Origin: Acidobacteriota bacterium
Lineage (GTDB): Bacteria; Acidobacteriota; Terriglobia; Terriglobales; Acidobacteriaceae
Assembly (NCBI GenBank): GCA_021778875.1
Contig: JAJYBT010000057.1
Coordinates: forward strand, 1 to 8,761
Length of the DNA: 8,761 nt
Reading direction: 5' to 3'
Part shown: one piece after another, positions 1-8,469 of the stretch
How the letters are laid out: each line of letters starts with the position of its first letter
Position numbering within the stretch: position 1 is the stretch's first letter
Position numbers and translations under genes: made by a program
Notes under the pieces: generated by a model
The model's input: the letters and a program-made list of their open reading frames with translations, nothing else
Told to the model about the DNA's origin: nothing
The model's database searches: none

Positions 1-493
1 GGTTGAAGTCCACGTGCAGGCCCACGGGCGCCGCGGCGTTGGCCACAACCAGAGGCGTGGTCAGTGCCACGTTGATGGTGTTGGTGGCGAGCGTTGCCGG
101 CATGGTTTGAATCGTCGGAGCGCCGGCGCCGCTTGTATCCAGGTAGCCCAGGGTGGCCGCGCCCAGCCTGATGGTCACATTGGTGTAGGTGCCCTCGGGA
201 ACATTGTTCATGCTCAGCAGCGTCTGCAGTCCGTTGAAGCGCGCAAAGTCAACCGTGGGCGAGCCGCTGATCAGCTGCACGCTGTTTCCGTTGGCGTCCG
301 TCGCGGTGATGCTTTGTACCTGCACTGTAAAAGAGGTCACGGCATCCATGGGCGCATCCGTGCCCACCACAAATGAAGTGCCGGTTTTGGCGCTCGACAA
401 ACCGCTTACCGAGCCGCCACTGCTGCAGCCCGCCACAACAAGCGTGGCGGCGCTCAGCGCAAGAAGTGAAGGGAGGACAAGTCTCTTGTGCAT
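1..493 (-). CDS. DUF4382-like secreted lipoprotein, N-terminal part (runs off the left edge)
   Basis: The reading frame is open from an ATG at 493 to the window edge, about 164 residues with no stop, so the C-terminus is missing. The N-terminus MHKRLVLPSLLALSAATLVVAGC is a lipoprotein signal: basic MHKR, a hydrophobic stretch, then lipobox VAGC with Cys23 as the lipidation site. A Ser/Gly-rich tether follows, then a region with VVGTDAPMDAVTSFTVQVQSI, VDFARFNGL and VPEGTYTNVTIRL. This pattern (TDAP, strand-rich core, GTY before a final strand) fits the DUF4382 family, secreted beta-sandwich proteins of unknown function that are common in Acidobacteriota. An in-frame ATG at 505 would add MHIR; neither start has a convincing Shine-Dalgarno sequence. 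The cell location (membrane-anchored, periplasmic or outer surface) follows from the lipobox. Family assignment is from memory of the pattern, and the molecular role is unknown. Confidence 0.8.
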   Translation of the reverse strand, partial: MHKRLVLPSLLALSAATLVVAGCSSGGSVSGLSSAKTGTSFVVGTDAPMDAVTSFTVQVQSITATDANGNSVQLISGSPTVDFARFNGLQTLLSMNNVPEGTYTNVTIRLGAATLGYLDTSGAGAPTIQTMPATLATNTINVALTTPLVVANAAAPVGLHVDFN

Positions 494-1000
494 CCTGATG
501 TGCATCTCTGGTACTTCGCTTTCTGCGAGCGTCCGTGGCCTCCACGGTTGCGTCGCGCAAGGGGGGATTCAGACCAAGGCAGCTGGAGAGGGACAAGGGT
601 TGAGCCGCCCGGGCCGTTGTCAGACATCAACCCAGCCTTAGCGGAAAATGTTGCGCACCGGATGCATCTTCTTCACGGGACTTTGGTAACCTGCCCGCGG
701 CACGTACTTGAAAAGTCGTGCTTCCTCATTCGTCGTCATCTTCAGTGCGATGGGAAACTACAAGCTCGTGCAGCAGAGTGCAGGATGCTGATTTTTAGCA
801 CTCATGCGCTTCAATGGACGAAGCCTGTCCAAATCCGTGAGCGTGGAATCGTGTAAAAACGTGAATCGTATCCACACAAATATGAGAATAGCATCTCTTA
901 ATATATTAATTGTTTAAACGGAGATTATTTTCGTGCAATCACTTTTGAATGGAGGCTGGAACAGGTTGGAGTCGCTTTCCGTTGGAGTGGCGGGCGCGGG
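494..1000. other. Non-coding gap upstream of the lipoprotein gene
   Basis: No open frame in this 507-bp stretch has protein-like composition; the frames present are rich in Arg, His and Cys and look like noise. The likely contents are the promoter and leader of the lipoprotein gene and the 3' end of the dapA-side transcript. The notable parts are an AT-rich island at about 850-930 in otherwise GC-rich DNA, a 6-bp inverted repeat (GAGTGC 776-781 with GCACTC 798-803, 16-nt loop), and two copies of GTTGGAGT at 965-972 and 981-988. No hairpin followed by a T-run was found, so no intrinsic terminator is called. Confidence 0.6.
850..930. promoter_or_regulatory. AT-rich island, possible promoter region
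   Basis: This stretch is strongly AT-rich against a GC-rich background and includes the self-complementary TTAATATATTAA (899-910) and GTTTAAAC (912-919). On the minus strand there is an extended -10-like element TGCTATTCT (plus positions 885-893), but no good -35 at 16-18 bp. If used, it would give the lipoprotein gene a leader of nearly 400 nt. The direction and start of transcription cannot be fixed from sequence; low-melting promoter DNA is the simplest reading. Confidence 0.3.
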
Positions 1001-1228: not shown

Positions 1229-2155
1229 TTAGAAGAGCCCCAGGTCGCCTTCCGGTGGCGGAGCGAACTTGAGCAGGCCCAGTTCGCCGGCCAATCGTTC
1301 CAGCCGGGCACGTGTTGCCACCGAGGGCGGCACCAGCGGCAGACGCACCACATCTGTTGTGCGGCCCATCAGGTTGAGCACCGCCTTCACCGGTCCGGGG
1401 TTTGACTCCCAGAAGTTGGCCTCAAACAATCTTCCGTAGCGGCGCTCCAGCTCTCGTGCCTGTGTCCAGTCGTTGCGCAGAGCGGCGCGTATCATGCGTC
1501 CCACCTCCGCGGGAGCCTCATTGGAAGCTACGCTCACAAGCCCGCACGCTCCCACGCCAATCGACGCCAGAGCGAGATTGTCGTCGCCGGAGAAAATCTT
1601 GAAGCCGCGCGGCAGCATGTGCACCAGAGCGGAAATCTGGGGCAGCTTTCCGCTGGCTTCCTTGATGGCTTCGATGTTGGGCGCGGCGTCTACAAGCCGG
1701 AGCACCGTTTCCGGCTCCAGGTTCACGGCCGTGCGTCCGGGCACGTTGTAGAGCACCACGGGCATGGGGTCCACGGCTTGCGCCAGGGCGAGAAAGTGCT
1801 GGAACTGCCCCTCCTGCGAAGGCTTGTTGTAATACGGATTGGCCGACAGTACGGCATCCAGGCCGCGCACACGGCGGAGCAGCGCCGCCTGCCGCAGCAG
1901 TGTTCGCGTGGAGTTGTGCGTACACCCAGCCCACACCGGCACGCGTTCAGCCGCCGCGTCCGCCACCACCTGGATAGCGAACAGCCACTCCTCTTCGTCC
2001 AGCGTCGCCGCCTCGCCCGTTGACCCGCAGGCCACCAGGAAATCGATGCCTGAGTCAATCTGCCAGTTCACCAGCGCACGCAGCGCAGGCTCATCTATCG
2101 AGCCGTCCGCCTGGAAAGGCGTGACAATAGCCGTACCGCAACCCGTAGTTTCCAT
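1229..2155 (-). CDS. dapA: 4-hydroxy-tetrahydrodipicolinate synthase (DapA)
   Basis: The 308-residue product condenses pyruvate with aspartate semialdehyde, the first step committed to diaminopimelate and lysine, in the cytoplasm. It is a class I (Schiff-base) aldolase with a TIM barrel and is near the family's usual length of about 290-300. Visible active-site elements are GSTGE at 44-48 (usual GTTGE, here Ser45-Thr46), NPYYNKPSQEG at 106-116, Tyr136 and Arg141 in YNVPGRT, and the Schiff-base Lys165 in IEAIKEASG. FSGDDNLAL further on is also typical. The ATG at 2155 was chosen because METTGCGTAIVTPF is the normal start of the family; the open frame reaches back to 2260, but that part is not family-like. 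No Shine-Dalgarno precedes the ATG; the upstream bases are CU-rich. It follows the acetyltransferase gene by 85 bp on the same strand and is separated from dapB by the opposite-strand tonB-like gene. Confidence 0.95.
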   Translation of the reverse strand: METTGCGTAIVTPFQADGSIDEPALRALVNWQIDSGIDFLVACGSTGEAATLDEEEWLFAIQVVADAAAERVPVWAGCTHNSTRTLLRQAALLRRVRGLDAVLSANPYYNKPSQEGQFQHFLALAQAVDPMPVVLYNVPGRTAVNLEPETVLRLVDAAPNIEAIKEASGKLPQISALVHMLPRGFKIFSGDDNLALASIGVGACGLVSVASNEAPAEVGRMIRAALRNDWTQARELERRYGRLFEANFWESNPGPVKAVLNLMGRTTDVVRLPLVPPSVATRARLERLAGELGLLKFAPPPEGDLGLF

Positions 2156-2240
2156 AACAGGTGAGTGTATAACGGGAGGCCTTGGCGGGCTGACGGCCTG
2201 TATGGAAAAGAGGAGCCAATGGCTGTAAGCGGCGCAGGTT

Positions 2241-2726
2241 CTAGGGTTTCCGCGACGCATATTCGCGGTCGAGCACAGACATCAGGCTCAGCGTGCAATA
2301 TTCGCCGTCGCGCACCGCGGCCTCGCGCATCTTGCCCTCGTAGACAAAGCCAAGGCTTTCATAAAGGTGGCGCGCGCGGGCGTTGTCGTCAAACACGTCG
2401 AGGAACAGCCGATGCGCACCGAGTTCGCCAAAGGCGATGCGCATCAGCTCTTCGAGAATTTTGCGCCCCAGGCCGCGTTCGGGCGTCGCAACCACAATGC
2501 GCTTCAGCTCAATGGAGCGGGACGGCTCGGCCAGTCCGCGCAGGATGGCAAAGGCTTGCAACATTCCGGACTCCGCCTCGCTGACAAAATAGCGCGCATC
2601 CGGGCTGACGAGCGTAGCCCGGTGGCGCTCCTCGCTCCACTGGCCCACGAATTGGCGTGACTGAGGTAACCGCTCGATGGCGATGATTGCAGAGAGATCG
2701 GCGAGCGTGGCAGGGCGCAGGAGCAT
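2241..2726 (-). CDS. GNAT-family N-acetyltransferase (RimI-like)
   Basis: The 161-residue product fits a single GNAT domain, which moves an acetyl group from acetyl-CoA to an amine. It begins MLLRPATLADLSAI, a standard GNAT opening (beta 1 and start of helix 1). Motif A is LKRIVVATPERGLGRKILEELM, with the acetyl-CoA pyrophosphate loop RGLGRK at residues 84-89. Motif B is NARARHLYESLGF at 115-127, followed by the EGKMREAAVRDGEY strand pair typical of RimI/RimJ-like enzymes. The substrate cannot be told from sequence; a protein N-terminus or a small amine are both possible. The frame extends upstream to 2927 (228 residues), but the added part has no GNAT character and crosses an AT-rich patch, so ATG 2726 is preferred. 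The Shine-Dalgarno is weak (GGAC). The gene is probably co-transcribed with dapA, 85 bp downstream. Confidence 0.85.
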   Translation of the reverse strand: MLLRPATLADLSAIIAIERLPQSRQFVGQWSEERHRATLVSPDARYFVSEAESGMLQAFAILRGLAEPSRSIELKRIVVATPERGLGRKILEELMRIAFGELGAHRLFLDVFDDNARARHLYESLGFVYEGKMREAAVRDGEYCTLSLMSVLDREYASRKP

Positions 2727-3162
2727 CAGGTCCAGACTAAAGCATGCGCGCTTTTCCGGGCCTCGGAGCCGGCGTCCAGGCCTTCCGGCTGAACGGATAG
2801 TGACGAAAGGCACGTGCGCCCTGTACTGAGGTGTTCTATTTGAATTGGAAGGCGTATAGCATAATGTTTCAAGAGAACCGGCAACGGCTGGCATTGGTGT
2901 TTGCCGTGGATCCCGGATGCAGTGCAACGCATTGATTCAATCAGACTCGACCTGCGGAATCAGATGATCGATGAGCCGCAGGCGGCAGTCCTCCTTACCC
3001 ACAGATCTTCGTAGTCTTCCCAGAACGAGCTGGCAAACGAGACCGCAGCTTGTGCTGACGTGCCGTTTCGCTTCAACCCCGGCAACTGTGCGCGGAGTTG
3101 GAGAGAAAGTGCAATGCGACTGGATTGATTCCGCATGAACGGTTACGAAGGACGAATGACCT
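2727..3162. promoter_or_regulatory. Divergent intergenic region between the GNAT gene and the tonB-like gene
   Basis: This gap of 436 bp separates two divergently transcribed genes, so it should carry promoters in both directions. The most promoter-like part is an AT-rich patch at about 2830-2870, whose minus strand has TGCTATACG and a weak TTGCCG about 17 bp upstream; it would fire toward the acetyltransferase gene and dapA. ATTGATTCAAT (2931-2941) is a short near-palindrome that could bind a regulator, but it is too short to weigh. No convincing promoter was found for the tonB-like gene. Open frames across the gap have no protein-like features. Confidence 0.35.
3147..3152 (+). promoter_or_regulatory. 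Ribosome binding site of the tonB-like gene
   Basis: GAAGGA ends 10 nt before the ATG at 3163, which supports this start. An ATG at 3156 is in a different frame. Confidence 0.6.
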
Positions 3163-5031
3163 ATGGCTGCAACTAGTGAAGTGCCGATTACACCTCTGGA
3201 AGCTGATCCCGAGCTCTCTTGCCCGGGTGGCATGTCGATCGCGCTTATCGGGCCCAACGACGCGCACAGAAAAATCGTCGCCAACGCGCTGGCAGGCCCG
3301 GACGCGCACAGTGTGCGCGAGTTCCTGGACTATCCAGGCAAGATCAGCGATCTGCCGCGCATGATCGGTCACAAATTCGACGTGGTGCTCATCGATGTGG
3401 ATACTGATGAGAGCTACGCGCTCGCACTCATTGAGAACATATCAGCCATCGACAAAGTCAGGGTGGTGGCCTATTCGATGCGGCGCGGCCCCGCACTGGA
3501 GGCGAGCTGTCTGCATGCAGGAGCGCACGACTTTCTTCCTCTTCCGTCAGATGACGATCTGGAGCCCATGCTGGTTGATTCGCCATTTGTGGAAGACGCC
3601 GGACAGAGCAGCCCGGAAGACCTGTTCAATCCTGAAGAACTGAACGTACGGGATGACAGCATCGAGGTGTATCCGGCGGATGCGATAGCGGAGAAGGCTC
3701 CTTCGGCACTGCCGCAAAGTCCGATTCGCGAACCGGAGCCGGATGCCTACGACTTCACCGAATGGGATGCCCGGTTCCTTCGCCGCGCCCGGCCGGCAGC
3801 CGCCGAAGTTCCGGTAACAAAGCCGCAGCCGGCAATCACCCCGGAGCCACCCGCCAAGAGCGAACCGCAGATTGCTGCAACTGAAGTTGCTTCGCCGATA
3901 TCAGAAATCACCTTACACGCAGCGGAAATTACGCCACCCGCAGCCGAAATCGCGCTCCCCGAGGTGGAGAGCATTCCCACTGCGAATGAGAGCCACGCGC
4001 CTGCGGTTGAAAGCGCCCCCTTCACGGTTGAGACTAAATCAGCTCCGGTTGAGAGCCGCATGTCTGCGGTTCAGAATGCTGCGCCGGCGGTTGAGAGCCG
4101 TCCGCCCGCAGCTGAGACTGCCCGACCTCGTGTGGAGAGCCATCCACCGGCCATCGCTAGGACACTGATCCCGATCGACTGGACCGACGACGAGTTCCTT
4201 CAGATTGCCGAAAAGAAAGCGCCCCCGCCGGTGAGTGAAAAAGTCGAACTCTTCCGGGCCAGTCAATACAAGGCTGAGGCCGGCGAAGACGAGGCCGGCG
4301 ACAACTGGATTTCATTCGCCAATTTGAAGAAGTGGATGTTGATTCCGGCAGGATTGGCGCTGGTTGCCGGGCTGCTTTTCCTCGTTTTCGGGCATCCATT
4401 CCAGCAGGTTGTTCAAGTGGCGCAGGCAGTACAGAGCGTTGCATCGCGGGCGGAGACACCTGACCCCGCTCCTGCGGCGAAGCCTTCGGCTCACACGTCA
4501 TGGAAAACAATTCTGGAGTCCGGCTTCGGGAAGTCCGCCGAGCCGAGCCCCGTGCAACAGGTTTCCTCTGATCAGATGGTGGCTCAGTTGGCCGCGCCGC
4601 CCATCATTCCCACCACTGCGAAAAGACCTGCGCCTGTCGAGGCGCCACCGGCGGAGCTCTCTCCTGCGGCCATTGATGGCAGCGTCAGCGTTCCTCGCGC
4701 AGTTTTCAGTGGCGCCAGCCAGGTGAGAGTCGAGCCGGACGTATCTGCGATCTCGGCCGGCGTGGCCGAAGGCTTGCTGATCCACAGAACCGCGCCGCTT
4801 TATCCGGCATTTGCGCGGGAGCACAACTTGAGCGGCACGGTGGTCCTGAACGCCACAATTACAAAAACTGGGGCACTGGGAGGCATAAGCGTTCTCAGCG
4901 GGCCGTCCGTCTTTCGCAACCCCGCGCTGGACGCGGTGAAGACCTGGCGCTACAAGCCCTACATGCTCGACAATCAGCCGGTCGAAGTGCAAACCACGAT
5001 CAGCGTGGTCTTCAAATCCGGAGAGCGCTGA
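3163..5031 (+). CDS. TonB-family protein with N-terminal receiver-like domain
   Basis: The 622-residue protein has four parts. Residues 24-137 resemble a CheY/CpaE-type receiver fold: strand MSIALIG, then FDVVLIDVD with Asp78 where the phospho-acceptor would be, VRVVAYSM, and AGAHDFLPLP. The acidic pair and the conserved Lys of true receivers are missing. Residues 138-390 are a Pro/Ala/Glu-rich linker that includes 13 heptad repeats (240-330). One transmembrane helix lies at about 391-409 (WMLIPAGLALVAGLLFLVF), preceded by Lys389-Lys390, so the N-terminal 390 residues are predicted cytoplasmic. After a periplasmic spacer, residues 538-619 form a TonB C-terminal domain: APLYPAFAREHNLSGTVVL, a GxxGGISVLSGP turn, LDAVKTWRYKPYMLDNQPV and a final TTISVVF. 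TonB links the inner-membrane proton-driven ExbB/ExbD motor to outer-membrane transporters; no exbB or exbD is nearby. Ordinary TonB has its helix at the extreme N-terminus, so the large cytoplasmic part is unusual. It is the only plus-strand gene and lies between dapB and the GNAT-dapA pair. Confidence 0.85.
   Translation: MAATSEVPITPLEADPELSCPGGMSIALIGPNDAHRKIVANALAGPDAHSVREFLDYPGKISDLPRMIGHKFDVVLIDVDTDESYALALIENISAIDKVRVVAYSMRRGPALEASCLHAGAHDFLPLPSDDDLEPMLVDSPFVEDAGQSSPEDLFNPEELNVRDDSIEVYPADAIAEKAPSALPQSPIREPEPDAYDFTEWDARFLRRARPAAAEVPVTKPQPAITPEPPAKSEPQIAATEVASPISEITLHAAEITPPAAEIALPEVESIPTANESHAPAVESAPFTVETKSAPVESRMSAVQNAAPAVESRPPAAETARPRVESHPPAIARTLIPIDWTDDEFLQIAEKKAPPPVSEKVELFRASQYKAEAGEDEAGDNWISFANLKKWMLIPAGLALVAGLLFLVFGHPFQQVVQVAQAVQSVASRAETPDPAPAAKPSAHTSWKTILESGFGKSAEPSPVQQVSSDQMVAQLAAPPIIPTTAKRPAPVEAPPAELSPAAIDGSVSVPRAVFSGASQVRVEPDVSAISAGVAEGLLIHRTAPLYPAFAREHNLSGTVVLNATITKTGALGGISVLSGPSVFRNPALDAVKTWRYKPYMLDNQPVEVQTTISVVFKSGER
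3880..4152 (+). repeat. 13 tandem 21-bp units coding heptapeptide repeats
   Basis: Residues 240-330 of the TonB-like protein divide exactly into thirteen 7-residue units with no gaps: TEVASPI, SEITLHA, AEITPPA, AEIALPE, VESIPTA, NESHAPA, VESAPFT, VETKSAP, VESRMSA, VQNAAPA, VESRPPA, AETARPR, VESHPPA. The consensus is roughly (V/A)-E-(S/I)-x-x-P-A. The DNA period is 21 bp; copies are diverged, with gttgagagc-like cores the best conserved. The Pro in most units argues against a coiled coil and for an extended spacer. Confidence 0.85.
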
Positions 5032-5096: not shown

Positions 5097-5774
5097 TTAT
5101 AACTGCTGGAAGATTTCGCGAAACTCCCACGCGCCTTGTTTGCCGGCGAGCCATTCGGCGCCGCGGACCGCGCCGAGGGCAAAGCCGCGGCGTGAGTGCG
5201 CGTCGTGGCGCAGTTCCAGCGTGTCGTATTCGCTGCTGGCGGTGACGATGTGCTCGCCTTTGGCGTCGCCGATGCGGTGCGAGGTGATGGGCACCTCGAC
5301 GCCCGGATGGGCAGCGTGAATAATTTCCTTCAGCGTCAGCGCAGTGCCTGAGGGCGCGTCGAGCTTGGACGTGTGGTGCGTCTCGCTGATGGAAAACCTG
5401 TAGCCGTCAAGGTGGGCCAGTTCCGCTGTCAGCCGGAAGAGCTTTTGCACGCCGATGGAGAAGTTGGTGCCATACAAAAGCCCGCCGCCGCGGCGAGCGG
5501 CCAGCGCCTTCATGTCGTCGAGGCGCGCATACCAGCCTGTGGTGCCCACGACGATGCGCCCGCCCAGGGCCAGCACGGCGCGCATGTTTTCAACCGCCGC
5601 TTCGGGCGCGGTAAAGTCAATCACCGCATCCACTCCGGCGAGGTTTGGCGCGGTGAGCGCGGAGGCGTTCTGGTTTTCAGTAATGTCCAGGGCGCGCACG
5701 CCATGGCCGCGCTCACGGGCGACCTCCGCAACCAGCGAGCCGGTTTTTCCTTTGCCCAGAACGAGAAAAAGCAT
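5097..5774 (-). CDS. dapB: 4-hydroxy-tetrahydrodipicolinate reductase (DapB)
   Basis: The 225-residue product uses NAD(P)H to reduce the DapA product to tetrahydrodipicolinate in the cytoplasm. The Rossmann loop is LGKGKTG (residues 6-12), in place of the common GxxGxMG; its two Lys may influence NADPH versus NADH choice (inference). Then come DFTAPEAA (53-60), VVGTTGW (75-81) and GTNFSIGV (102-109). The signature ETHHTSKLDAPSGTAL (131-146) carries the catalytic His133-His134 and Lys137 and the substrate loop DAPSGT. C-terminal SHRIGDAKGEH and RRGFALGAV are also typical. It is shorter than the 273-residue E. coli enzyme and resembles the compact form known from some thermophiles. GGGGG just upstream of the ATG supports the start at 5774. 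It follows lysC by 63 bp on the same strand. Its 3' end converges with the tonB-like gene across 65 bp, where no intrinsic terminator is visible. Confidence 0.95.
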   Translation of the reverse strand: MLFLVLGKGKTGSLVAEVARERGHGVRALDITENQNASALTAPNLAGVDAVIDFTAPEAAVENMRAVLALGGRIVVGTTGWYARLDDMKALAARRGGGLLYGTNFSIGVQKLFRLTAELAHLDGYRFSISETHHTSKLDAPSGTALTLKEIIHAAHPGVEVPITSHRIGDAKGEHIVTASSEYDTLELRHDAHSRRGFALGAVRGAEWLAGKQGAWEFREIFQQL

Positions 5775-5837: not shown

Positions 5838-7253
5838 TCAGCTTGCGGGCTCAGCGGCCAGCTTGCGCGCTTCCGCGTCGAAAATCTCCGGATCGGGATC
5901 CTTGAAGAAGGCAGCATGCAATGACCGGACAGCTTCGTCCGCATCATCCTCGTCGATCATGAAGCTCATATTGATCTCGCTCGCGCCTTGCGAGATCATG
6001 CGCACATTGATGTGGCGAATGGCGTTGAAGACCTGCGCGGCGATGCCGTTCTGCCCGCGGATGTCTTCGCCGACCATGCAGATCAGCGCCTTTTTGCCCT
6101 CGTACTTCACGTCGGCGAGCTGGCTCAGGTCGGCGGCAATCGCGGGCAGTTTGTCGTTCGAGTCCACGGTGAGCGAAACGCTGACTTCGCTGGTGGAAAC
6201 CATGTCGACCGGGCACTTGTGCTTGTCGAAGATGGTGAAGATTTCCTTCAGATAGCCGTGGGTCATCAGCATACGGCTGGCCACAACGTCGATGATGCTC
6301 AGCTTCTTTTTCACCGCGATGGATTTGAACGGGCTCCTGCAGTGCGGCGCCAGCGAGATGATGCGCGTGCCCTCGTTCGACGGATTGCGGCTGTTGAGCA
6401 CGAGTACGGGAATGTTTTTCTTCACAGCCGGCAGAATGGTGGCCGGGTGCAGCACCTTTGCGCCAAAGTAGGCCAGCTCGGCGGCCTCTTCAAAGCTGAT
6501 GACCTTCACGCGCAGCGCATCCGGGCAGACGCGCGGGTCGCAGGTCATGATGCCGTCCACGTCAGTCCAAATCTCGATTGCGTCCGCGTTGAGCGCGCCG
6601 CCGATGAGGGCGCCGGTAAAGTCAGAGCCGCCGCGGCCCAACGTGGTGGTGATACCTTCTTCGTTGGATGCGATAAAGCCGCCCATCACCGGCACCTTGT
6701 GCTGATTCACCAGCGGGAGCAGCTTCTCGGCGGCGCGCTTTTCGACAATCGCGTCCTGCGGCACGGCTTTCTGGTATTGCGAGTCCGTGATGACCACGTC
6801 GCGCGCGTCCACATGCATGGCGTCCATGCCGCTTTCGCAAAAGGCCGCGGCAACGATGCGGCTGGAGATGCGCTCGCCATAGCTGACGATCAGGTCGGAG
6901 ATGCGCGGCGTGAGTTCAAGAATGGCCGCCAGCCCGCGCAGAATCTCGTCGAGCGAGTCGAACTTCTGATCGATGTGGTTGACCAGCTCGGCCGGGTTCT
7001 TGACCAGCGCGGCAGCCGTGTCGCGGTGGCGCGAGCGCAGCCGCGAACTGATGGCCAGAGCGCCCGTGCGGTCTCCCTGCGCGGCCGACGAGGCGGCGCG
7101 CAGCAACTGGTCAGTCACCTTGGCCAGGGCGCTCACCACCACCACGGGCTGCTTGCCCATGGCCACGCGGCCAGCCACAATGGCCGCCGTACGACGGATG
7201 GCTGCCGGATCCTCGACCGACGTGCCGCCAAACTTCATCACAACCAGGCTCAT
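5838..7253 (-). CDS. lysC: Aspartate kinase, lysine-sensitive monofunctional type (LysC)
   Basis: The 471-residue protein phosphorylates aspartate with ATP, the entry step to lysine, diaminopimelate, threonine and methionine. The kinase domain starts with VMKFGGTSV (residues 5-13, nucleotide/aspartate binding, Lys7), continues with SALAKVTDQL and SYGERISS, and includes TTLGRGGSDFTGALIG (203-218), WTDVDGIMTCDPR (229-241) and FGAKVLHPATILPAV (263-277). The C-terminus has two ACT domains, about 317-375 and 388-455. The first contains GYLKEIF and VDMVSTSEVSVSLTVD, closely like the lysine-binding ACT region of E. coli LysC; the second contains INVRMISQGASEINMSF. Feedback inhibition by lysine is inferred from this resemblance. 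It is a monofunctional class enzyme with no homoserine dehydrogenase domain. A GGGAA motif 8 nt before the ATG supports the start at 7253. It lies between asd (50 bp upstream) and dapB (63 bp downstream), in the same direction. Confidence 0.95.
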   Translation of the reverse strand: MSLVVMKFGGTSVEDPAAIRRTAAIVAGRVAMGKQPVVVVSALAKVTDQLLRAASSAAQGDRTGALAISSRLRSRHRDTAAALVKNPAELVNHIDQKFDSLDEILRGLAAILELTPRISDLIVSYGERISSRIVAAAFCESGMDAMHVDARDVVITDSQYQKAVPQDAIVEKRAAEKLLPLVNQHKVPVMGGFIASNEEGITTTLGRGGSDFTGALIGGALNADAIEIWTDVDGIMTCDPRVCPDALRVKVISFEEAAELAYFGAKVLHPATILPAVKKNIPVLVLNSRNPSNEGTRIISLAPHCRSPFKSIAVKKKLSIIDVVASRMLMTHGYLKEIFTIFDKHKCPVDMVSTSEVSVSLTVDSNDKLPAIAADLSQLADVKYEGKKALICMVGEDIRGQNGIAAQVFNAIRHINVRMISQGASEINMSFMIDEDDADEAVRSLHAAFFKDPDPEIFDAEARKLAAEPAS

Positions 7254-7303: not shown

Positions 7304-8380
7304 TCAGGCGCGCGTGGCGGCCTCAGCCACCGGTTCCAGTTTGCCCAGACTTGCCAGCAGCTCGGCGTTCAGAATGGCTGCTCCCGCCGCGCCGCGAATG
7401 GTGTTATGCGAGAGCGCGGTGAACTTCCAGTCCAGCACGTTGCAGGGGCGCAGGCGACCCACGGTCACCGCCATCCCGCGGCCGCGATTGCGATCCAGCC
7501 GGGGCTGCGGGCGGTCGCTCTGCGGAGCCCACTCGACGGGCTGCTCCGGCGCCGTGGGCAGCGCCTGACCGGCCAGCGGCTTGAACTCCGACCACGCGGC
7601 AAGTATCTCGTCGTGCGTCGCGGGCTTCGCCAGCTTGATGCTCACGCTCTCCATGTGGCCGTCTTCAACCGCCACGCGGTTGCAGTGGGCGCTGATGCGC
7701 GCCGCGAGCGGCGTAACGGCATGGCCCTCAAGCCGGCCCAGCAGCTTGAGCGTCTCGGCCTCCATCTTTTCTTCTTCGCTGCCAATGTACGGCACCACGT
7801 TGCCCAGGATGTCCATCGAAGGCACGCCGGGGTAGCCGGCCCCGCTGACGGCCTGCATGGTGGTCACAAGAATCTGCTCGATGCCGAAGCGCTCCTCGAG
7901 AGGCTTCAGCGCCATGACCAGGCCGATGGTGGAGCAGTTGGGGTTGGTGACCATGTAGCCGCCCGTTGCGCGGCGCGAGGACTGCTCTTCAATCAGGTGC
8001 AGGTGCTCGGCGTTGATTTCCGGAATCACCAGCGGCACGCTGGGCGCCATACGGTAGGCGCTGGAGTTCGACACCACGGCGCAGCCGGCCTCGGCAAAGC
8101 GCGGCTCCAACTCGCGGGCAATGCTGGCGTCCAGGGCCGCGAAGATGATCTTCGGCGCGCCTTCGGGGTCGGCGGGCGCGACGGTCATTCTGGCGATGCG
8201 TTCGGGGAGGGGAGTATCGAGCCGCCACTTGGCAGCTTCGCCATACGCCTTGCCGCTTGAGCGGTCGCTGGCAGCAAGCCAGGCCACCTCAAACCACGGG
8301 TGGCTTTCAAGCAGTTGAATGAAGCGCTGGCCGACCATTCCGGTCGCGCCAAGGATGCCGATTGGGTATTTTTTTTGCAT
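7304..8380 (-). CDS. asd: Aspartate-semialdehyde dehydrogenase, archaeal/fungal-type (Asd)
   Basis: The 358-residue product reduces aspartyl-4-phosphate with NADPH to aspartate semialdehyde, the step between LysC and DapA. The N-terminal Rossmann loop is GILGATGMVGQRF (residues 8-20). The catalytic Cys149 lies in VTNPNCSTIGL, and ISAHCNRVAVEDGH (229-242) supplies substrate-binding Arg235 and the general base His242. MQAVSGAGYPG (175-185) and KFTALSHNTIRGAAGAAILNAELL (319-342) complete the pattern. The NPNCSTIGL and CNRV.V.DGH wording and the length match the branch of Asd best known from archaea and fungi rather than the E. coli type. ATG 8380 was chosen because it begins MQKKYPIGILGATG and has GGAGG upstream; the frame opens further to 8443 without family character. 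It is the first gene of an apparent asd-lysC-dapB operon. Confidence 0.93.
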   Translation of the reverse strand: MQKKYPIGILGATGMVGQRFIQLLESHPWFEVAWLAASDRSSGKAYGEAAKWRLDTPLPERIARMTVAPADPEGAPKIIFAALDASIARELEPRFAEAGCAVVSNSSAYRMAPSVPLVIPEINAEHLHLIEEQSSRRATGGYMVTNPNCSTIGLVMALKPLEERFGIEQILVTTMQAVSGAGYPGVPSMDILGNVVPYIGSEEEKMEAETLKLLGRLEGHAVTPLAARISAHCNRVAVEDGHMESVSIKLAKPATHDEILAAWSEFKPLAGQALPTAPEQPVEWAPQSDRPQPRLDRNRGRGMAVTVGRLRPCNVLDWKFTALSHNTIRGAAGAAILNAELLASLGKLEPVAEAATRA

Positions 8381-8390
8381 GGCTGTGAAC

Positions 8391-8395
8391 CCTCC
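8391..8395 (-). promoter_or_regulatory. Ribosome binding site of asd
   Basis: On the minus strand GGAGG lies 10 nt before ATG 8380. It is the best Shine-Dalgarno sequence in the window and decides the asd start over the upstream in-frame ATG at 8443. Confidence 0.75.
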
Positions 8396-8435
8396 AGTGT
8401 ACAGGAGGATGGGTTCCCGCCAACACATTGCTTGC

Positions 8436-8469
8436 GCAGGCATCCAATTTCCCGCGCTGCAGGCATCCA
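8436..8469. repeat. Short direct repeat upstream of asd
   Basis: GCAGGCATCCA occurs at 8436-8446 and again at 8459-8469, a centre-to-centre distance of 23 bp (about two helix turns). It lies in the 132-bp gap between the protease stop and asd, where an asd promoter would be expected. It could be an operator for a regulator or a chance duplication. No convincing -35/-10 pair was found in the gap. Confidence 0.3.

Follow-up and report, generated by a model that had tools for sequence, protein, structure and literature searches.

The gene examined here encodes a 622-residue protein (P0001) in which a receiver domain of the CpaE (TadZ) type is followed by a long linker, a single internal membrane helix and a C-terminal TonB domain. 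It lies in an 8,761-nt stretch of Acidobacteriota DNA, the whole of which is referred to below as the window. As judged from sequence, its receiver half derives from CpaE, and in related genomes cpaE and tonB-like genes recur side by side or fused. We tentatively suggest that the protein is a fusion of the CpaE pseudo-receiver with a special TonB-like protein and that it acts as a passive connector across the cell envelope, most plausibly between CpaE and the secretin CpaC of Tad pili.

Architecture and distribution of the fusion

The initial annotation of the window placed a TonB C-terminal domain at residues 538-619 and a receiver-like fold within residues 20-140. The HMM search recovers the former with PF03544 (residues 544-618, 56.3 bits versus a cut-off of 24.6; E 4e-15), and the latter is found at residues 22-130, where a receiver-only structure model has a pLDDT of 90 and matches PDB entries 4dn6, 4lda, 4dad and 4myr. 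With PF00072 the window protein scores 21.8 bits, below the Pfam cut-off of 30.2; the same family is present in the database annotation of some relatives. The internal membrane helix, originally assigned to residues 391-409, is supported as one helix near 385-410 and is thus not at the extreme N terminus as in TonB energy transducers. Domain matches, the structure model and the sequences of relatives are also consistent with the domain order and the N-in topology that had been predicted. The domain scan gave no match to a MinD/ParA-type ATPase or an FHA domain in the protein (Table 1).

Table 1. Features of the window and of one related locus. Positions refer to the window unless a locus is named.
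Feature	Position	Strand	Basis or remark
Receiver-membrane helix-TonB_C protein, 622 aa (P0001)	3163..5031	+	ORF call, domain matches and structure model
Pseudo-receiver (residues 22-130), an atypical receiver domain of the CpaE/TadZ type	3226..3552	+	Fold, trees and residue counts
Cytoplasmic linker, residues 131-384, largely disordered	3553..4314	+	pLDDT mostly <50
DFTEWD, residues 197-202, the [DE]FxxWD short motif within the cytoplasmic linker	3751..3768	+	
Membrane helix, residues 385-409 (about 385-410)	4315..4389	+	Hydrophobic peak 392-410
Periplasmic linker, residues 410-537	4390..4773	+	
TonB C-terminal domain, residues 538-619	4774..5019	+	PF03544, TIGR01352 and predicted fold
GNAT acetyltransferase	2241..2927	-	Retained beside the fusion in 6/9 fusion loci
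dapA	1229..2260	-	Retained in 6/9 fusion loci
dapB	5097..5774	-	Retained in 6/9 fusion loci
lysC (aspartokinase)	5838..7253	-	Retained in 6/9 fusion loci
asd	7304..8443	-	Retained in 5/9 fusion loci; one contig (L006) stops short of asd
Whole CpaE fused to TonB (G535), 1958-aa frame with many Ig-type repeats	L189:2016-7889	-	

The gene is set among lysine-biosynthesis genes (the dap region), outside any Tad cluster, and the seven neighbouring ORFs scanned in the window include neither ExbB or ExbD nor a receptor gene. The adjacent DapB (225 aa) is matched by DapB_N only from profile position 61, i.e., it has a short N-terminal domain, and the DapB of L012 is likewise matched from position 65. 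At the other end (2-505, minus strand) the window edge cuts a DUF4382 protein with a lipoprotein-like N terminus.

A protein search returned 54 proteins, 52 of which (P0002-P0053) carry the receiver part, with P0054 and P0055 being distant; in a profile search that returned 58 proteins the same 52 score far above the others. Database annotation gives both ends, receiver and TonB_C, in 51 of these 52 relatives, the exception being P0016, which ends early and is without TonB_C. Another product of the profile search, P0056, is a long CpaE whose source name is Flp pilus assembly CpaE family ATPase. Among genome contigs, 80 of 99 stretches were kept and 79 loci counted, all assigned to Acidobacteriota or to genera within the phylum. 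The fusion is present at nine of them (L001, L002 in two frames, L003-L006, L009, L012 and L046), six of which have the order dapA-GNAT/fusion/dapB-lysC; in the examined DNA of L004, L005 and L009 none of dapA, GNAT, dapB, lysC and asd was found. A chance fusion or an assembly artefact was rejected, given that P0002 is 93% identical and of the same length, that relatives are many and that selection on the fusion is purifying. The TonB_C domain of the fusions is complete and strongly conserved.

Whether the architecture is fixed in Acidobacteriota had been raised as a question for a survey. It is not, since the fusion was detected in at least 3 of 250 class-level genomes, where a receiver match of the CpaE-like type occurs in at least 28. 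In 398 family-level genomes a receiver match was found in at least 87 and the fusion in at least 11 (G002-G007, G444, G452, G471, G506 and G549). Occallatibacter savannae is one cultured carrier of the fusion. The surveys scored 19 (class-level) and 12 (family-level) candidates per genome, hence the counts are lower bounds. All 11 family-level fusion genomes have a second receiver match, in a frame of 403-438 aa; a receiver match of any kind occurs in at least 76 of the other 387, and these counts ignore kinship.

Origin of the receiver half

The comparison with CheY, CpaE/TadZ and other folds, as had been proposed, returned a receiver fold with CpaE and TadZ at ranks 2 and 3; these are tied with others within 1 Z, so the fold alone cannot single out CpaE. 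When the receiver profile is searched against PDB sequences, CheY and other receivers come first and CpaE/TadZ entries follow at E 0.004-0.06. In the phosphorylation pocket, the site of the acidic pair after strand 1 is Gly30-Pro31 (Gly-Pro in 52/52 listed relatives and 14/14 locus fusions) and the site of the strand 5 Lys is Leu127 (Leu in all 52 relatives and 13 of the 14 locus fusions, Val in one), while the phosphorylatable Asp78 is retained throughout both sets (52/52 and 14/14). With the acidic pair exchanged for Gly-Pro and the Lys for Leu, the domain is a pseudo-receiver. Neither the acidic pair nor the Lys is present in the 40 short CpaEs tallied. CpaE/TadZ thus has a homologous N-terminal atypical receiver with the same losses, but in CpaE a MinD-type ATPase follows, whereas in the fusion a membrane helix and TonB_C do.

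Identity of the receiver domain to those of five long CpaEs from relatives is 42-45%. A midpoint-rooted tree of 75 receiver domains unites 13 of the 14 fusion rows in one clade (support 100/99), which is nested among the short CpaEs of fusion-bearing genomes (branches 99/82, 98/92 and 96/73), and another receiver tree likewise nests the fusion among CpaE/TadZ domains. As the trees nest the receiver among the CpaE/TadZ proteins of the relatives' own genomes, its sequence identifies this half as a copied piece of CpaE. The fourteenth row, from G595 (L188:2268-4151, minus strand), groups with long CpaEs; it is a second, divergent receiver-TonB fusion for which an independent origin is possible. 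A single origin for all fusions was therefore not adopted, though an AU test does not reject one clade for all (p 0.095).

In seven fusion genomes with all candidates scored exactly two receiver matches each were found: the fusion itself and a CpaE, 403-421 aa long, which adjoins cpaF in 7/7. A second receiver match is also present in all ten fusion genomes of a 59-genome, genus-level set, five of which overlap the seven and the others of which were judged by frame length. The CpaE of the window's own organism is assumed from these relatives. Three fusion-free genomes with all candidates scored gave zero (Silvibacterium), zero (Terriglobus) and seven (G008) receiver matches. A receiver match is near-universal in the genus-level set (53/59), and co-occurrence therefore carries little information within close genomes.

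The TonB half and its linkage to cpaE

In sequence, the TonB half resembles TonBs encoded next to cpaE: in helix type, partly in a short motif and, weakly, in a tree. Asn or His occurs within the first 16 helix residues of 53 of the 60 canonical TonBs of the group, and in this window of the helix it occurs in none of the 53 listed fusions, none of 13 locus fusions and none of 20 TonBs in a set that includes the retrieved CpaE-adjacent ones. Widening the window places Asn/His near the helix edge in three of these 20 and in one of the 13. In E. coli TonB, His20 in the membrane helix is needed for coupling. Canonical TonB-ExbB-ExbD systems have TonB_C in common with the fusion; however, they have an N-terminal helix, usually with Asn/His here, and an exbBD operon, and they are without a cytoplasmic domain. 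One relative, REEB336, has a separate tonB-exbB-exbD-exbD operon (L001 and L013).

The motif [DE]FxxWD is present in the cytoplasmic linker of 51 of the 53 listed fusions (all but P0010 and P0020) versus 0.05 expected from shuffles, these proteins being related to one another. Only six of 13 distinct locus fusions carry it; its absence from the other seven rules it out as a hallmark of every fusion. The longer form LPxDFxxWD is found near the start of all 15 CpaE-adjacent TonBs retrieved (of 16 pairs). In the first set, seven of the 95 TonB frames that are not fusions have DFxxWD, five of them immediately behind cpaE and the others at L007 and L047, and at least four of the 15 retrieved TonBs are the same genes as in this tally. 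Beside the motif-bearing TonBs L007, L047, L207 and L208 no cpaE was found in the stretch examined, nor beside L209 and L210 in shorter stretches.

A first TonB-domain tree on 81 columns left the TonB half of the fusion unplaced, and a longer region placed it weakly. In the resulting tree of 87 TonB regions the fusions group with the DFxxWD TonBs (inner branches 90/85 and 89/86, outer 90/31); L037 and L206 also fall inside this group, and the TonB of G535 sits firmly in it (100/97). The L206 protein (3922-4995, minus strand), a TonB from the G578 dapB locus, is cut by the contig end and is without DFxxWD; by eye, its start is like a stretch near the C terminus of long CpaEs.

The linkage of cpaE to tonB-like genes takes several forms. 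Among the 59 genus-level genomes, a CpaE-TonB pair (a long CpaE, in frames of 580-1589 aa, followed by a same-strand TonB within 3.0-5.0 kb) occurs in 16 and a fused receiver and TonB in 10 (in G002 split in two frames). No genome has both states (hypergeometric 0.03, ignoring kinship), and given that neglect of kinship mutual exclusion is not claimed. A gene with TonB_C stands between cpaE and cpaF-tadB-tadC in L020 (by Pfam), L008 and L018. Overall, cpaF follows the pair in 5/16 (four of the 15 retrieved pairs plus G008/L020); in the other 11 it was not seen next in the DNA examined, some stretches being short. The pairs at L030 and L040 (20-kb loci) lie beside unrelated genes (MFS, deaminase and RND/HlyD). 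A single 1958-aa frame of G535 runs from the receiver through a MinD-type ATPase, Ig-type repeats and a helix to TonB_C. Ig-type repeat matches past the ATPase are seen in the long CpaEs of L020 and L189, and in G001 a Tad secretin is encoded about 8 kb from cpaE.

Other gene arrangements were seen at these loci. The long CpaE at L008:5607-9509 (plus strand) continues past the ATPase with numerous Ig-like repeats and a short stretch that recurs. In G008, the gene immediately upstream of a short cpaE encodes a small TonB_C protein whose start resembles a signal peptide (L126:703-1176, plus strand); L095 (G003) has a similar one.

A possible connector for CpaE and alternative roles

We infer a connector from published work, taken as far as the accessible text of the papers goes, and from the G001 secretin. 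Caulobacter CpaE promotes the localisation and assembly of CpaC (PMC5182063), and six CpaE dimers have been fitted as a ring about CpaF, likely with REC-REC contacts (PMC13170226). The pseudo-receiver of FrzS serves polar localisation without phosphorylation (PMC1974792). In Pseudomonas, pocB and tonB3 mutants have no type IVa pili, and a contact between TonB3 and the N0 domain of the secretin PilQ has been suggested (PMC5285504). In the model that we favour, the pseudo-receiver, together with DFxxWD where present, would dock on the cytoplasmic CpaE/CpaF side, the single helix would traverse the inner membrane, and the TonB domain would grip a partner in the outer membrane, most plausibly CpaC, the secretin of the Tad system. 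This would keep the outer channel and the inner motor at one place. The connector is proposed to be passive because the helix core is without Asn/His. The Tad pilus as setting is the weakest step of this proposal, since the fusion gene lies outside Tad clusters and most of the CpaE-TonB pairs were not seen within one.

Three known systems offer comparisons, again within the accessible text of the sources. In GltG (PglI) of the Myxococcus gliding machinery a cytoplasmic signalling-type domain, a membrane helix and a terminal TonB_C are combined in 640 aa (PMC3169522); the likeness is one of architecture, as GltG has an FHA domain, not a receiver, and interacts with the motor protein AglR. Hence, the long cytoplasmic part that the initial annotation considered unusual is so relative to canonical TonBs, but it is not unprecedented. 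TonB3/PocAB of Pseudomonas aeruginosa provides a TonB-like protein required for pili (PMC5285504), but these are type IVa pili, the PocAB partners are ExbBD-like, and no receiver domain is mentioned for TonB3. The Caulobacter protein ZitP is bitopic, and its cytoplasmic domain acts on how the Tad secretin CpaC is assembled (PMC5182063); in contrast to the fusion, it has a zinc ribbon and DUF3426 and is described as a CpaE-independent pathway. A literature search, largely of titles and abstracts, found no description of a receiver-TonB fusion or of a CpaE-TonB link. Cytoplasmic domain, membrane helix and TonB_C are thus already known in one protein (GltG), while the receiver version and the CpaE partnership appear to be new.

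More generally, though this is rather doubtful, some Acidobacteriota CpaE/TadZ systems may have a dedicated, so far unrecognised TonB-like partner, in the form of a neighbouring gene, a full CpaE-TonB fusion or a minimal receiver-TonB fusion, that mechanically couples the positioning ATPase to an outer-membrane secretin. If true, this would offer one explanation of how CpaE, in the cytoplasm, positions a channel in the outer membrane: the accessible text of PMC5182063 names no direct physical link between CpaE and CpaC, and a receiver-helix-TonB protein would be such a link. It would also mean that TonB domains are reused as structural connectors, not energy transducers. Since a CpaE-TonB fusion occurs naturally, the partnership can be put to the test.

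Other roles have to be weighed against the connector. The protein might be a CpaE partner outside Tad pili and span the envelope as part of a different CpaE/MinD-like positioning system (for polarity or envelope upkeep). The 11 pairs for which cpaF was not seen next, the unrelated genes beside L030 and L040 and the Ig-type repeats of the long CpaEs would fit such a role; we nevertheless consider it fairly unlikely, as the receiver half groups with the short CpaEs that adjoin cpaF in 7/7 and five of the 16 pairs lie within Tad clusters. Alternatively, the CpaE-type receiver could serve as an address label that brings a TonB retaining transport function to the site of CpaE, for example the pole, where it would serve local TonB-dependent receptors. 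The complete and conserved TonB_C and the control of FrzS polar localisation by its pseudo-receiver (PMC1974792, accessible text) are in keeping with this idea. It is unlikely, however, given a helix that is without the polar residue of canonical TonBs, scanned neighbours that include no receptor or exbBD gene and a relative that already has a canonical tonB-exbBD operon.

The initial annotation had proposed that an intracellular signal acts on outer-membrane energy transduction. A cytoplasmic signal, perhaps phosphorylation, that gates the TonB would account for the invariant Asp78, and other TonB_C proteins with kinase and true receiver domains exist (P0059). We regard this reading as improbable. 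A phospho-switch is not the first choice because the pocket residues are lost (the acidic pair and Lys, in all these fusions as in the 40 short CpaEs), and an energy-transduction role is disfavoured by the helix, the lack of exbBD among the seven scanned neighbours and the separate operon of the relative. In place of signalling, sequence, gene neighbours and trees point to CpaE/TadZ. P0059 itself is a 923-aa protein with a receiver above the Pfam cut-off, a Ser/Thr kinase and a C-terminal TonB_C. P0054, a 627-aa TonB_C protein, has a receiver-like N terminus that has no Pfam match and, by eye, shows Lys-Pro past strand 5; P0057 combines a kinase, TPR and TonB_C.
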